From contig JAENZJ010000003.1 of NCBI GenBank assembly GCA_016841325.1, positions 1 through 64,000 of the forward strand: a stretch of DNA of 64,000 bases, in the 5' to 3' direction. The translations under genes and the position numbers were made by a program. This stretch comes from Thermincola carboxydiphila. GTDB taxonomy: Bacteria; Bacillota; Thermincolia; Thermincolales; UBA2595. Every line of letters begins with the position of its first letter. Position 1 is the stretch's first letter. A model generated the notes under the pieces. It was not told the origin of the DNA and did not search any database. It was given only the letters and a program-made list of their open reading frames with translations. Of this stretch, positions 21,264 through 28,357 are shown in pieces.

Positions 21264-22808
21264 TTAAGGGTTATTCAGAGACCGTCTCGGGCTCAAATTC
21301 TTTTTGGAACCGGTATCCCTTAAAGATCGCTTGTTGTTCTGTCCGGTATGCAGCGCTCCTTCTCCTATGGAGAAAGACAGAGTTGCAGGCTGGTTTTCAC
21401 TGAAATACAATAATTTTCCGCCGCTCATTACAGCAAGTACATAGGTTTCTCCTTCGTCCAGGAAATCCAAATTCCGCGCCTTCAGCTTGAACTTGTAATA
21501 TGCCCCCGGAAGGTTTCCAGCACAGTTCTTTGAATGGCGCCCGGAATTACCGCTTTGGGAGCCATCCTGGGTGATTTCGCCCACATAGTTATCCATGGAT
21601 ATGTTCTCGGGATCGTCAGTCTTAAAAAAATAGATTACAGGTATTTCTTCCGGTTCCTCCTGCAGCCAGAATCTTATAGATACCGCCCTGCGTTCCAACA
21701 CAAAATTGTCTGTAACAGGCGGCATCCAGAACCCGTGGTTAAGTTGGAAGCCTCCATCCCAAATAGTTCTAACCAGCGCCTCTTCTTTTAGGGGCTCAGG
21801 GTTTTGAGGATCTCCATTCCCATAGTTGCCCATTGGTGGTTCAGATGGTCCGGAATCCCGGTCTCCCTGGTCCCCCTGATTGCCCTGGTCACTCTGGTTA
21901 CCTTGATTACCCTGATCTCCCTGGTTACCTCCCTCTCCAAAGGAGAGTGCTGCAACTACAGTATCCAGAACCACTTGACCATCTCCGATAAGAGAAGCTG
22001 TAACGGTCAAGTCCCGGGCTTCCACAGAGTCATTAAAGGCAATCGCAGTTTCTTTTCGAAAGGTGTTGTCTTCCCCAAGGTCTGTCTCAGTGATACTCCA
22101 GTCGTCTTCCTGTAGTTCAACTGTTCCCAAATCAGCTAAAACATCCAGCAGGTCGGTCTGTATCACTGCCTCTGCATTTACAGTAAAGGGGGGCACGGGA
22201 ATTGAGAGTCCGTGGGTAGCTATCAAATCATTACTCCCGCCATTACTCCCTTCTGCCGGTATGATTAGCCTGACTTTTTCCGGCAGGCTCAGTCCCTCCT
22301 GGTACAGCTCCGTCAGGTCAACCGTCAGGTCCAACTCAACACTTGTTACTCCACTTTCTGTATACTGGTAGAACTCAGTTAACTGATAGGTTTTAACAGC
22401 TTCAAAGGTACCATCCTCTGACTCGTCACCCAGTACAACGGTGATTGTATCCAAAGTGGTTTCCTTGTAAATGTCCGCCTCCATAGATATCAGCAGCTCA
22501 TCGGATACTTCCCGGCGTACAGCACTTACCAGGTACAGACCAGTAAGCGGGTCGATGTTACCGGACCGATCTGCAGTCAGTTCTGCAGTAAGGTCCCACC
22601 CGTATGTGATTACCTGTTCAGCATCAACATGGGTGATGTCCAACACCCGCTCCTCAGCTCCACCGCCATTGCCGGAAGTATCTGCGGCTGTTTTTTGTGT
22701 ATTACTTCCGGTATCGGGTACAGTCTTGTCAGGTGATTCAGCCATCGCAAACACCGTGCTCGATACAAGGAGTGCGATGGTAAGCAGTACAGTCAGTATT
22801 TTTCGCAT
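21264..22808 (-). CDS. Secreted protein with a Gly-Gln/Asn/Asp repeat tract
   Basis: 514 aa. The signal peptide is MRKILTVLLTIALLVSSTVF with AMA before the mature part. Residues about 55-300 form beta-rich regions without a recognised family. A low-complexity tract of NQGDQGNQG repeats (near 300-322) is followed by a second beta-rich domain (FWMPPVTDNFVLERRAVSIR). The tract may be a flexible linker; its G-x-x period is collagen-like but lacks proline. The gene lies 29 bases behind the SLH protein and probably shares its transcript. Function unknown. Confidence 0.75.
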   Translation of the reverse strand: MRKILTVLLTIALLVSSTVFAMAESPDKTVPDTGSNTQKTAADTSGNGGGAEERVLDITHVDAEQVITYGWDLTAELTADRSGNIDPLTGLYLVSAVRREVSDELLISMEADIYKETTLDTITVVLGDESEDGTFEAVKTYQLTEFYQYTESGVTSVELDLTVDLTELYQEGLSLPEKVRLIIPAEGSNGGSNDLIATHGLSIPVPPFTVNAEAVIQTDLLDVLADLGTVELQEDDWSITETDLGEDNTFRKETAIAFNDSVEARDLTVTASLIGDGQVVLDTVVAALSFGEGGNQGDQGNQGNQSDQGNQGDQGDRDSGPSEPPMGNYGNGDPQNPEPLKEEALVRTIWDGGFQLNHGFWMPPVTDNFVLERRAVSIRFWLQEEPEEIPVIYFFKTDDPENISMDNYVGEITQDGSQSGNSGRHSKNCAGNLPGAYYKFKLKARNLDFLDEGETYVLAVMSGGKLLYFSENQPATLSFSIGEGALHTGQNNKRSLRDTGSKKNLSPRRSLNNP

Positions 22809-22837: not shown

Positions 22838-25800
22838 TCAATAAACAGTTGGCTGCATGCATGTCAAAAAGCGTTTTAGCATTACTGCCGCTTCCGCTCT
22901 GCTTGCCTTTGACCCCGGTGCAATTATGCTGCCGGTCCTGCCGGAAATGATTTTTCTGTCGACCGCAGCCGCTGTGCCTAGCCGTGCAAAATCCGAAATA
23001 TCATGCCTGTCTGCAAATCCTGCCAGCCTGTTGTTTATTTCATCTTCCGTTAGCAGTCGTCCTTTTCCGGCATAGTCCAATGCCCGGGAAAGCGTAACCG
23101 CTATCTCTTGTCTGGTTATTTTTTCATCGGGACAGAATCTGTCGTTTGAGACACCTTTTACAATCCCCGCTTCTACTGCTGTAGATACTGCACCGTAATA
23201 CCAAGTTTGGGGCTTGACGTCGGTAAAGCTCAAAGCACTATCCGCTTCGCCATTCAAACCCAAAGCCCGGACAACCAGCGCTGTGAACTCAGCCCTTGTA
23301 ATCTCTCCATCAGGATTGAATCTTTCCTTGCTCATGCCTTTAACAATATGCCTTGACACCAGCTTTTCTATTTCTGCCCTTGCCCAGTGATTCTGGATAT
23401 CACCAAAGGTTTTTACATATTTCATTACAGCATAATAGGAAAAATGGTCCGTGACACAAGTGATGGTGTTTGTTACAGGGTCGTATTCTCCACCAATAAA
23501 GTCCCAATTTCCCGTATCTTCATTATACCGGTACACACCCAGTGTATCCGGGTCAAAACTGCTTAACCCTATTCCTTCAAGAGATATGGATATGCTGACC
23601 TGTTCATTAAAGTTGGTAAGTTGACTATTTTCAGCAGAGGTTATGATCTGTACAGTAAATTCGAATACACTGTTACCTATTTTATACAGGCCTTCCCCGT
23701 CGCCCTCTTGAGCATCTTCCGTCTTTTCCGGGGTTTCACTTTCAGATAACTCCGCAATACTGATCATGAGCCAGGCATCCTTTCCCGGTGCTTCATAGGA
23801 CTGCAGGTCAACTACATTCGGTGGGAGTGTTATGTCAACCTTTCCGGACTGAATTGTGAGGTCTTTAGCTTTCTCACCGAGCAGTGCAAATACATCGCTG
23901 CTTATCAAAGCCGACTGTGGTTTGTCTGCATCCAATACAGCCACAACATTGGTTTTTTCAGTATTATTGACCTGTTCCACGATGGATTCCGTGGTGATAA
24001 TGGTCCCCTCAAACTCTTCCTTTGAAGGAGCCTTGGTACCACTGCCCGTACTTCCTCCTGAAGAGGGCTTTACGTATTTGACAGGACTCCCTATACAGCC
24101 TCCATCAAGAGATGATGTATGCTGGACTGAAATTCCGTCCATGGTATCAATAAGAGCAGGCATCACAATCTCGTATGTTACCACACCATTATCATCCGTA
24201 ACCGAACTCACATTTACACCTTGTATAGCAGCCCCATAATCCACGCCATCAATTTTATAAATCTCGTCACTACTGCTTCTGTTATCTATGACTGTTATAT
24301 CCATTGCAAACTGATATCCCGATACAGGATTACCATCCCCGTCCCTGGCAGTCAAAGTAACTGTGCTGGTGCCGCCAGTTGTAAGCGGTGGACTTACCTC
24401 TACAGAAGACTTGGACGTATCAATATCACCGGCAGGCGGTGCAGAGACTTCTACAACCTCTACAAATCCACCTTCCCTCATTATCCTTCGGAACATAACG
24501 TCACTTCCATCTTCCCCTGTATCATTCCAGACCGCATAAAATATGGAACCGTCCGGAACCATTCTTATCTGGCATTCCGCCTGTTCAGACTGCTTTTGGC
24601 CTGTATCCTTGGCCAGCCAGTCCCACCTGGTCACTTCCTGCCCGGCATACTCGCTGTTACCCTCAGGATTGATAGTTTTTGTAACGGTATAATATGTTTC
24701 ACCAAAATCCGTACTATGGCTATAGTAAAGGTCCAGGGGCCTGCCCTCTTCCTCACTGTTCCTGCCCGGATTGGAATGGGTTCCGTAGGTTACCCAGAAG
24801 GAACTTGTATCCTGTCTGTCTTCGGGATATAAAACAGTGCCATCAGTCATAACAGTTCCGGGAACGCCTACCAAACGGGGCTCAATTACGGTTTCTTTGT
24901 TGTTTGTGATTTGTGAAACATTTCTGGCGGGCTCAAATTCGCCGGGACCATAGAAAGTAGTTATTTCTTCTTTTTCCTTTGAACCTGAGCTTCCTGAATC
25001 TCCGTCTGTGGCATCAGTTTCAGCAGTTACGTCAGATTCCTCGGTTTCATAAGGAACAGAACCTTCATAAGTTTTAAATGTCTGGGTATGGGTTACACCT
25101 TCTCCATTGGGGTCTGTTGTCCAGGTTGCCCCTCCGTCAAAGGACCGCCGTAAATAAAGGTTATATACATCGTTTCCGTTTCTGGCTGCTGCCCAGTTTG
25201 GCGTCCAGTCATAAGCAACCGCCAGGAAATTACCCTTGATAAATCCCCTGTGAGCCCGGGCATCATCGCCGGCATATTCCCAGGAATAATCGTCCAGATT
25301 GTCTTCAGCCTGTACCCACCTGACTACTTTTTCCGGCACCCTGTTTTCTGATTGACTGTCCGGATTGATCCATTTCTCTGTAGGAGTTATGCTGCTGATA
25401 TTCTGCCAGCCCTCCGCCAGGTTTTCAGCCCTGTAGGGATTGCCTTTATTGGATGGGTGTTTATCATCTTTGACTACAACCCAGCGCCGCATGAAAATAT
25501 CTGAAGGACGTCCCTTTCCTTCCTCACCCATTTTAAACAATGTAACCATTACAGTGGCCTCTTCCCCATTACCTACTGCATCTAAAGCGTTTTTCTTCGA
25601 CTGCACCAGCAGGCGGGGACGCCTTGCATTCTCGTATGCCGGAATCTTTTCACCGTTCCAATCCAGTAAGTCATTACCCTCCTTGTCTTTTAGATATAGG
25701 AGGTTACCCTCTGCGTCCCTGGCCTGTGAATTGAGAATTGTCCCGGCACTGACTAAATCAGGTTGGGTAAAATCAAAGCTGTGGTAGATGACATTCTTAC

Positions 25801-26065
25801 CCCGGTCCGGGTAATACCTGTCTGCTCCCTTTTTATCACCGGAGCCGTCCTTATCCTTGGATTCTTCACTGTCATCTGCTGCTACTGTAACTACAGGAGG
25901 CCCTGAACCAACGCCCTTGGTTTCCTCATAGACTATCATTGCCCATGCGCTGTATGTGCCATCAGGCTTCTTATGTGGCTGCAGCATGATATTGGGCCGG
26001 GAAGCGCCGGTATCGCCATCCATTAACCGTCCATCCTCAGTAATAGCCACCCACTTTTCTTCATC
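22838..26065 (-). CDS. 3' part of an SLH-anchored surface protein, behind an in-frame TAG
   Basis: About 1075 codons continue the frame of the gene at 26066-28357 directly after a single TAG; the first possible independent start is GTG at 26050 with no good ribosome site. The product has sialidase/BNR-like beta-propeller features (LRRSFDGGATW, DLYYSHSTDFGETY), an Ig-like bacterial domain near residues 530-640, and three S-layer homology domains at the end (FGDIQNHWARAEIEKL; FTDVKPQTWYYGAV; FADRHDISDF). SLH domains bind secondary cell-wall polymer. Without readthrough it lacks a signal peptide and could not be exported. Confidence 0.8.
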   Translation of the reverse strand, partial: DEEKWVAITEDGRLMDGDTGASRPNIMLQPHKKPDGTYSAWAMIVYEETKGVGSGPPVVTVAADDSEESKDKDGSGDKKGADRYYPDRGKNVIYHSFDFTQPDLVSAGTILNSQARDAEGNLLYLKDKEGNDLLDWNGEKIPAYENARRPRLLVQSKKNALDAVGNGEEATVMVTLFKMGEEGKGRPSDIFMRRWVVVKDDKHPSNKGNPYRAENLAEGWQNISSITPTEKWINPDSQSENRVPEKVVRWVQAEDNLDDYSWEYAGDDARAHRGFIKGNFLAVAYDWTPNWAAARNGNDVYNLYLRRSFDGGATWTTDPNGEGVTHTQTFKTYEGSVPYETEESDVTAETDATDGDSGSSGSKEKEEITTFYGPGEFEPARNVSQITNNKETVIEPRLVGVPGTVMTDGTVLYPEDRQDTSSFWVTYGTHSNPGRNSEEEGRPLDLYYSHSTDFGETYYTVTKTINPEGNSEYAGQEVTRWDWLAKDTGQKQSEQAECQIRMVPDGSIFYAVWNDTGEDGSDVMFRRIMREGGFVEVVEVSAPPAGDIDTSKSSVEVSPPLTTGGTSTVTLTARDGDGNPVSGYQFAMDITVIDNRSSSDEIYKIDGVDYGAAIQGVNVSSVTDDNGVVTYEIVMPALIDTMDGISVQHTSSLDGGCIGSPVKYVKPSSGGSTGSGTKAPSKEEFEGTIITTESIVEQVNNTEKTNVVAVLDADKPQSALISSDVFALLGEKAKDLTIQSGKVDITLPPNVVDLQSYEAPGKDAWLMISIAELSESETPEKTEDAQEGDGEGLYKIGNSVFEFTVQIITSAENSQLTNFNEQVSISISLEGIGLSSFDPDTLGVYRYNEDTGNWDFIGGEYDPVTNTITCVTDHFSYYAVMKYVKTFGDIQNHWARAEIEKLVSRHIVKGMSKERFNPDGEITRAEFTALVVRALGLNGEADSALSFTDVKPQTWYYGAVSTAVEAGIVKGVSNDRFCPDEKITRQEIAVTLSRALDYAGKGRLLTEDEINNRLAGFADRHDISDFARLGTAAAVDRKIISGRTGSIIAPGSKASRAEAAVMLKRFLTCMQPTVY

Positions 26066-28357
26066 CTAGTTATTGATCTTTTTATGAAAGTCGACACATA
26101 ACCCTGGTACTGTGTATCCATAGCTATGGGAACCATCGGATTCTCCCGGCTGTGAATCTCTTTTGGATTCTCCCGGCTGTGAATCTCTTTTGGATTCTCC
26201 GGACTGTGAATCTCTTTTGGCTTTCCCGGTACCTGTGCCGGGTTTATCATCTTTTCCACTGTCCGCGCCAGGGTCTACCACCCAATTGCCATTATCATCC
26301 TTAACCGGGCCGTTTTCATCCACTACCAGTTTCATATTATCTGAGTTCAGGGTGTCATTGTCAGATATGCGCACCGGCAGTTTAAATGGAACCAGGGCCT
26401 TTGGCCGTCCCATCAGTTCCTTGTCCTCATCATGCTGGGGGTCTCCGCCGGAGACAAAGTTCTCGTCTATTTTGTCAAAGTCATCCCAACCAATATATGA
26501 ATACCAAACATCGGTCTTATGGTTAGTGGTAGCTCCACTCCAGCCATGACCCGGTCCCGCCATTTCGCCAGGCCTGACTCCTTTGGGGTCCTCCTGCCAT
26601 ACAATAGCAAAACCTGCATTGCTTGCCCCGTTAACCATTATCTGCCACGCATCCCTCCGGCCTGAAGTCAGCCTCTCGGGCTTAAACCAGGTAATGTCTC
26701 CGGTTTCCGGACTGATAACTCCACGACAGGTCCATACGCAGTAAAACGGGAGTTCACCCACTTCCGGAAAGCTCAGTTCCGTGTAGTCAAAAGATCGCTG
26801 AGGTCCACCTACACCCCAGATATCTTCCTCATAGTATTCATCATCATAAGGATAATCATCATCTGTTCTGATTGCATAAGTGGGCCTGCCGCTCTTGCCG
26901 TACCTGCTGGTCCATACAACCAGGATTTTGTTGTTCGAAACCTTGATGTTGGGTTTTAAAACATCCCCCGGATAAGTGGTGCCGTTTGCCAGGGTAAAGG
27001 AAGACTTATCCGCCGAGCGGGATAGGTTTGTTATTTTCCAGGTATTTCCTTCATCCCGGGATACAGCAGCAAAAACATCCATGGCCCCGGTCCCCGGAAC
27101 CTCATCAGCATAAACAGAAACCAGTGGCTTTGCTAAATCCCTGGTGCTAATCGTGTTTCCCTCACTATTTTTGTATACCAACTGCACCGGCTCACCATTG
27201 GCCCTTCGGGCCGGCACGTATACGGGCATCAGCTCTAACTTCGCTTTAGCAGTTTCCATATCCGGAGTTTTCGATATGTTCTTTCTAAAGATAGTAGTGA
27301 AAAGACCCTTTAAAAGATTGCCCCGTGCCTCTACCTCAGAAACCATTTTCAGGCTGACACCATCCAGACCGCTGCTTAATGACACCGTCCGGCTGATAAG
27401 GGATTCTACCAGCTCAGAATCAGCAAAATCCAGGTCTGCAATGTTCAGCTCATTCATTGCCTGCTCCAGGCAGCCAACCACCGGCTCGGCTATTTCAATT
27501 CCCCTTGTGGGGTCACCGTCAGCGTCCAGACTCTGTAAAAGCCGCGCCATGTTGATTACTCTGGAGTCATCCAAACTATGAGCGCCGACAAGGTCAAGGG
27601 GGGTAACCCTGTGTTCCGCTGGAACAGTTCCAAGACACAGCGACCCGATGCTTAACGTCACAGTCTCTCCGTCAATATAGCTGAATGCACCGCTGGCGTC
27701 AGTACGTCCTTTGTGAGAACGGGTGTCATACCATGCTCCTCCCACAGGAGCATCAACAAAATGTCCTGTCATGGGTTTATCCAGAGCATACCGCATCCAC
27801 CAGCCCCATCCGGAATCAAACCGGTTGCTGCCATATGCCCAGGCCTCCTCATGGGAAACCTGTTTACCGTGTTCTCCTTCCCCTGTCAATTTAACACAAA
27901 CAGCTACATTTTGAACCCGTTTTCCATTATCTCTTCGCCCCCATGAGAAATCCAGATCTTCCTCCAGATCAAGGGCAAATTCATAGAAGCCTACCGGGCT
28001 GCTAAAGTGTTCACCATACGGAAACAGCGCCGGTCTTGGAGCGCCACCATCTGACACCGGAACCGGATCCGTTCCCACATAGACTTGCACTTTGGATATT
28101 TTCCAGTCTTCGTCGGGCTCAATGTGAACCAGGAACTGTTCCTTTGTATTCCACATTTCCACCTTGCCCGCACTAACCAGCTCTCCGGTTGCCGTAGGTT
28201 CTGCACCGGCCTTTATGTACAGTTCAGTTTCATGCTTACCCGGTCCAACATAACTGTCTGACATCATGTTACTACTTAAGACCTGACTGGGTCCCCAAAA
28301 ACAGGAAACTGCCAACATAAAAACCATCACCAGGGCTAAACGCGGTCGTCTTGCCAT
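26066..28357 (-). CDS. 5' part of the SLH surface protein, with signal peptide
   Basis: 763 codons then TAG (26068-26066). The signal peptide is RPRLALVMVFMLAVSCFWG. The mature part has a beta-rich N-terminal region, a segment typical of surface proteins (GGAWYDTRSHKGRTDASGAF), a helical region and BNR-like repeats (DVFAAVSRDEGNTWKITNL). It ends in three ESKRDSQPG repeats. Reading through the TAG would give one 1839-residue protein ending in SLH domains, a layout I associate with NCBI's choice-of-anchor-type proteins. The sequence itself cannot tell whether the TAG is a recent nonsense mutation, readthrough, or a pyrrolysine codon. Confidence 0.85.
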   Translation of the reverse strand: MARRPRLALVMVFMLAVSCFWGPSQVLSSNMMSDSYVGPGKHETELYIKAGAEPTATGELVSAGKVEMWNTKEQFLVHIEPDEDWKISKVQVYVGTDPVPVSDGGAPRPALFPYGEHFSSPVGFYEFALDLEEDLDFSWGRRDNGKRVQNVAVCVKLTGEGEHGKQVSHEEAWAYGSNRFDSGWGWWMRYALDKPMTGHFVDAPVGGAWYDTRSHKGRTDASGAFSYIDGETVTLSIGSLCLGTVPAEHRVTPLDLVGAHSLDDSRVINMARLLQSLDADGDPTRGIEIAEPVVGCLEQAMNELNIADLDFADSELVESLISRTVSLSSGLDGVSLKMVSEVEARGNLLKGLFTTIFRKNISKTPDMETAKAKLELMPVYVPARRANGEPVQLVYKNSEGNTISTRDLAKPLVSVYADEVPGTGAMDVFAAVSRDEGNTWKITNLSRSADKSSFTLANGTTYPGDVLKPNIKVSNNKILVVWTSRYGKSGRPTYAIRTDDDYPYDDEYYEEDIWGVGGPQRSFDYTELSFPEVGELPFYCVWTCRGVISPETGDITWFKPERLTSGRRDAWQIMVNGASNAGFAIVWQEDPKGVRPGEMAGPGHGWSGATTNHKTDVWYSYIGWDDFDKIDENFVSGGDPQHDEDKELMGRPKALVPFKLPVRISDNDTLNSDNMKLVVDENGPVKDDNGNWVVDPGADSGKDDKPGTGTGKAKRDSQSGESKRDSQPGESKRDSQPGESDGSHSYGYTVPGLCVDFHKKINN
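26138..26218 (-). repeat. Three 27-bp tandem repeats inside the surface protein gene
   Basis: Copies at 26138-26164, 26165-26191 and 26192-26218 encode ESKRDSQPG or ESKRDSQSG. They lie 70 bases before the TAG. The repeats are nearly identical, so copy number may vary by slippage. Confidence 0.85.

Follow-up and report, generated by a model that had tools for sequence, protein, structure and literature searches.

An In-frame Amber Codon in the Gene for a Choice-of-anchor O Surface Protein of Thermincola carboxydiphila, a Bacterium That Carries the Genes for Pyrrolysine Decoding

Introduction

Pyrrolysine (Pyl) is a derivative of lysine. The methylamine methyltransferases have a UAG site that different species share, with Pyl in the active site (PMC8318568). 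Neutral UAG codons have also been proposed in Thermincola potens and in Methanosarcina (PMC3639795), and a review (PMC8211752) cites a neutral UAG in the tRNAHis guanylyltransferase of Methanosarcina. According to the same review, Pyl insertion in Escherichia coli does not require a cis element, and it has been proposed that insertion is governed by competition between release factor and tRNA-Pyl. In Acetohalobium arabaticum, UAG is read as Pyl only during growth on trimethylamine (PMC8211752).

Here, a stretch of 64,000 nucleotides from Thermincola carboxydiphila (GCA_016841325.1, contig JAENZJ010000003.1, positions 1-64,000; referred to below as the window) was analyzed. It contains a surface protein gene that is interrupted by a TAG codon. 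As in the proposed neutral cases, the host has tRNA-Pyl and the lone amber lies in a gene that does not serve methylamine metabolism, and it may be a chance mutation that Pyl makes tolerable; it is therefore a new instance of an already known kind of event. By contrast with those precedents, the present case concerns a surface protein, in one copy and one genome. The methyltransferase genes mtmB, mtbB, and mttB lie in the same genome and contain the same codon, and their TAGs are likely the genuine Pyl sites of this organism, whereas the site in the surface protein aligns to Gln or a variable residue and falls in a predicted turn. The window protein shares its family (NF040591, choice-of-anchor O) and propeller region with proteins found in Clostridia, Desulfobacterota, and other groups; the window gene has a stop codon at this site, whereas the 22 relatives aligned across it have none there. 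No publications on “choice-of-anchor O” turned up in a search of the literature.

Results

Reading of the minus strand revealed a frame, 28357..22838, that is open but for one internal TAG at 26068-26066. The original prediction of a single in-frame TAG within 1839 codons, with both halves in one frame, was thus confirmed, and a frameshift between the halves, which was considered, is not required. The read-through frame comprises 763 residues, the TAG, and 1075 residues, and the codons around the stop are ATC AAT AAC TAG GAT GAA GAA AAG TGG. The 5′ part (26066..28357, minus strand) encodes a putative signal peptide, an N-terminal region, and the start of the propeller, and ends at the TAG; the motif GGGGAGG precedes its start codon, and the signal peptide (MARRPRLALVMVFMLAVSCFW) was called by reading the sequence alone. 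The 3′ part (22838..26065, minus strand) encodes the remainder of the propeller, a weak Ig-like match, and SLH domains, and is terminated by TGA. Past the TAG, the 1075 codons had a coding score of 148, which no other split frame in the first set of scored frames exceeded, and third-position GC content was 0.49 and 0.44 in the two parts, compared with 0.50 ± 0.08 for the genes of the genome. By inspection of the sequence, none of the start codons downstream of the TAG is preceded by a convincing ribosome-binding site. Restart at the GTG at 26050 was rejected as a functional explanation, given that the product would have no signal peptide.

A low-complexity linker just upstream of the TAG includes a 27-bp tandem repeat (26138..26229, minus strand; 3.4 copies by Tandem Repeats Finder), which encodes repeats of PGESKRDSQ. 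Phase variation linked to these repeats had been suggested as a cause of the interruption. This was rejected because the unit is a multiple of 3 (9 codons, in frame) and is located upstream of a frame that is not shifted, such that a change in copy number cannot alter the reading frame. A 514-residue frame (21264-22808) on the same strand, 29 bases downstream of the surface protein gene, has its own ribosome-binding site and repeats of 27-bp period at 21862-21930; a Pfam search matched it to no family.

To the read-through frame, the family profile NF040591 (choice_anch_O, a predicted β-propeller; curated cut-off of 125 bits) gave one match of 580.6 bits that spans profile positions 2-669 and crosses the stop (24524..27082, minus strand, with one TAG inside). 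Each half alone also scored above the cut-off, the 5′ half over profile positions 2-246 (295.7 bits) and the 3′ half over positions 270-669 (280.4 bits). The SLH family (PF00395) matched the C terminus with 105.6 bits, and two stretches pass individually. An AlphaFold model of the choice_anch_O region (mean pLDDT of 71) returned structural matches to sialidase-type and other β-propellers. The domain assignments first proposed are therefore borne out for SLH and, by fold, for a BNR/sialidase-like propeller; the Ig-like match (Invasin_D3) falls under the cut-off of Pfam. In the model, the TAG corresponds to residue 364, in a turn between strands 356-361 and 367-372. Given that many of the propeller matches span the model end to end, the TAG most likely cuts the predicted β-propeller in mid-domain. 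An arrangement of two adjacent genes is ruled out by the family profile and by single-frame homologues, both of which cross the stop. The predicted product is a single choice-of-anchor O surface protein that is exported and anchored through its SLH domains.

A genome scan identified 33 loci that encode relatives of the surface protein, 22 of which could be aligned across the TAG site. One of these, L067, is an uninterrupted frame of 1894 residues with the architecture of the window protein and a signal-like N terminus; it is 53% identical over query residues 38-1319, matches again in the SLH region, and reads INN-Q-D where the window protein has INN-*-D (asterisk, stop). Loci L065-L067 are all single frames of ∼1900 residues, with matches to the SLH region as well. 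The alignment on either side of the TAG is well anchored (KINN-x-DEEKWVAITEDGRLMDGDTGASRPNI). A stop codon was observed at the aligned site in 0 of the 22 homologues, all of which have a sense codon there. The residue is Gln in 11 (CAG in nine and CAA in two), Lys in four, Asn in three, and Met, Ser, Ala, and Glu in one each, so that the position is variable and mostly polar. Within the surface protein gene itself, CAG and CAA occur in a ratio of 34:11. Given that half of the relatives have Gln, a single CAG-to-TAG (C-to-T) transition suffices to explain the stop. In two of the homologues (L071 and L074), CxxCH heme-type motifs were noted in the linker just before the TAG column, at the place occupied by the 27-bp repeats in the window protein, hinting that some members of the family may be tied to extracellular electron transfer.

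Damage elsewhere in the gene was assessed by counting departures of the window protein from conserved columns of the aligned homologues. At invariant columns there were none, either before (0 of 49) or after (0 of 51) the TAG. At columns conserved to 90%, there were 0 of 81 before and 3 of 110 after, which is within the range of the intact homologues. By this sequence comparison the gene shows no measurable decay, but a recent loss of constraint would be invisible, because the nearest homologue that crosses the site is ∼62% identical. Taken with the Gln in half of the relatives and the single C-to-T step, the intact flanks make a recent nonsense mutation the best supported of the four causes put forward in the original prediction. 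A single substituted base could equally stem from an error in sequencing or in the draft assembly (49 contigs), or from a base present in a minority of the sampled DNA; given that neither an indel nor a second stop occurs in 1839 codons, this explanation is considered improbable.

Searches with NF040591 detected the gene in none of 199 relatives, two of which are of the same genus, and in none of a 398-genome draw of the phylum that overlaps this set; searches of IMG/VR and PLSDB likewise returned no homologue of the surface protein. Because the gene is missing from these genomes, yet homologues are scattered among Clostridia, Desulfobacterota, and others, acquisition by horizontal transfer (24524-27082) is probable.

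Programmed readthrough had also been proposed. In its most explicit form, Pyl decoding induced by methylamines would turn a secreted fragment into a wall-anchored form, an arrangement with which the order of the putative export signal (before the TAG) and the SLH anchor (after it) is consistent, as is the carbon source-dependent Pyl decoding of another clostridium (PMC8211752). However, the stop is positioned in the middle of the propeller rather than ahead of the anchor. No PYLIS-like stem-loop was detected, the 141 nucleotides around and after the TAG folding less well than shuffled sequences (z = +1.73). A conserved UAG would mark a selected Pyl protein, but each of the 22 homologues has a sense codon at the site, and the 199 relatives and 398 genomes searched included no sister species that carries the gene. 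Selected or programmed recoding is therefore regarded as very improbable.

The capacity of the host to decode UAG was assessed from its gene content. A tRNA-Pyl with anticodon CUA is encoded on contig C11, together with pylSn (113.5 bits), pylSc (313 bits), pylB (452.8 bits), pylC (377.6 bits), and pylD (208.2 bits), all above cut-off. The complement of pyl genes that the original prediction had proposed to look for is thus in place, and T. carboxydiphila is, by gene set (tRNA-Pyl(CUA), PylS, PylB, PylC, and PylD), a Pyl-decoding organism; PylS is also present in two genomes of the same genus. One in-frame TAG is found in each of two mtmB frames, in mtbB, and in two of three mttB-family frames. 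On contig C11, mtmB and the adjoining corrinoid protein gene are duplicated in tandem ∼5.5 kb apart (L034:6210-8294 and L034:11732-13816, with mtmB matches of identical score), and the mtmB copy closest to tRNA-Pyl runs directly into pylT-pylSn-pylSc-pylB-pylC-pylD. The genome also encodes release factor RF1 (557.8 bits). TAG terminates 158 of 669 genes of at least 150 codons (∼24%), and back-up stops are no more frequent near TAG-ended than near TAA-ended genes. Together, these three observations indicate that UAG in this host is still mainly an ordinary stop. The suggestion that the TAG encodes pyrrolysine is thus supported as far as the machinery of the host is concerned, and some readthrough of the codon is to be expected given that machinery, but nothing indicates selection for Pyl at this site.

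Split frames were sought by an in-frame scan that covered 38% of the genome (1.31 Mb), with pairs judged by eye. Mid-gene TAG codons were observed in the two mtmB genes, mtbB, the two mttB-family genes, and the surface protein gene, the latter being the sole amber-split gene outside methylamine metabolism in this sample. The remaining TAG, TAA, and TGA pairs were assigned by eye to neighboring genes, with a PheT/ZapA pair assigned via Pfam, and an SLH paralogue on contig C14 that had been flagged with a TAA proved to end naturally at that codon. Two frames with a mid-gene TGA were found, both on the minus strand of contig C12 (L139:3464 and L139:4868). In a DUF5714-CMD gene, the TGA occurs in AAGCEP*TQYCF and is likely a selenocysteine position; in a gene of the enoyl-CoA hydratase (crotonase) family, the single TGA, at YLGIL*PYGIIRLP, represents either selenocysteine or nonsense. 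Given that selB was found in the genome, the organism probably uses selenocysteine besides Pyl. Counts of split genes are too few to reveal an amber bias among nonsense codons. A wider tolerance of amber codons was considered and rejected, as the 1.31 Mb contained no amber-split genes besides those of the methyltransferases and the surface protein.

Discussion

The most probable origin of the TAG is a recent amber substitution of a Gln codon, which would be leaky where Pyl-tRNA is present and would otherwise amount to a null allele. We infer the direction and the recency of this change from the residues of the relatives and the state of the flanking sequence. A Gln codon in the turn of a β-hairpin of the propeller would have become amber, most simply by CAG to TAG. 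Where UAG acts only as a stop, the product would be an exported fragment of 763 residues that ends halfway through the propeller and lacks the wall anchor, which would make the allele effectively null. Where the pyl genes are switched on, some ribosomes would insert Pyl by means of tRNA-Pyl (CUA) and full-length protein would result. Two fates of the allele can thus be envisaged, and the likelihoods given to them below divide that of the amber substitution between them and do not add to it.

In the first, the amber would have ended production of the protein, too recently for the 3′ half to have decayed. The DNA evidence for such a plain pseudogene is identical to that for the amber substitution as a whole, and the TGA of the crotonase gene implies that this assembly may contain lone in-frame stops for which Pyl is not needed. 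Against it, total loss is unlikely with Pyl-tRNA around, as a cis element is reportedly unnecessary (PMC8211752), and no second lesion is present across 1839 codons. Complete loss of function is the likelier of the two fates, with a chance of being correct that falls a little short of even.

In the second fate, UAG would be decoded efficiently as Pyl, and the amber allele, drifting neutrally in a functional protein, would not be selected against, at least on methylamines. Such an outcome is consistent with the full pyl set and the TAG-containing methylamine methyltransferase genes of the host, with a site in a predicted turn that tolerates many residues including Lys, with the intact 3′ half, and with the proposed neutral UAG codons of other organisms (PMC3639795, and as cited in PMC8211752). 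However, given that TAG terminates about a quarter of genes (∼24%) and that these show no enrichment of back-up stops, strong general readthrough is unlikely. Similarly, the failure to find an amber-split gene beyond the five methyltransferase genes in the 1.31 Mb implies that there is no visible general tolerance of amber nonsense alleles. A functional Pyl protein maintained by drift is accordingly held to be a somewhat unlikely outcome.

The amber substitution, whichever fate follows it, bears on the question of how bacteria with tRNA-Pyl distinguish UAG as a stop from UAG as Pyl. With UAG still a common stop in the genome, a lone and apparently fresh amber located in a tolerant loop would serve as a natural reporter: the proportions of full-length and truncated protein, in the presence and absence of methylamines, would give the level of readthrough at a site that is not selected for Pyl. 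That Pyl decoding triggered by methylamines decides whether the intact, wall-anchored propeller protein is displayed is highly doubtful; were it so, dependence on Pyl would extend to a protein with no part in methylamine metabolism, and the surface of the cell would be tied to the genetic code in use.
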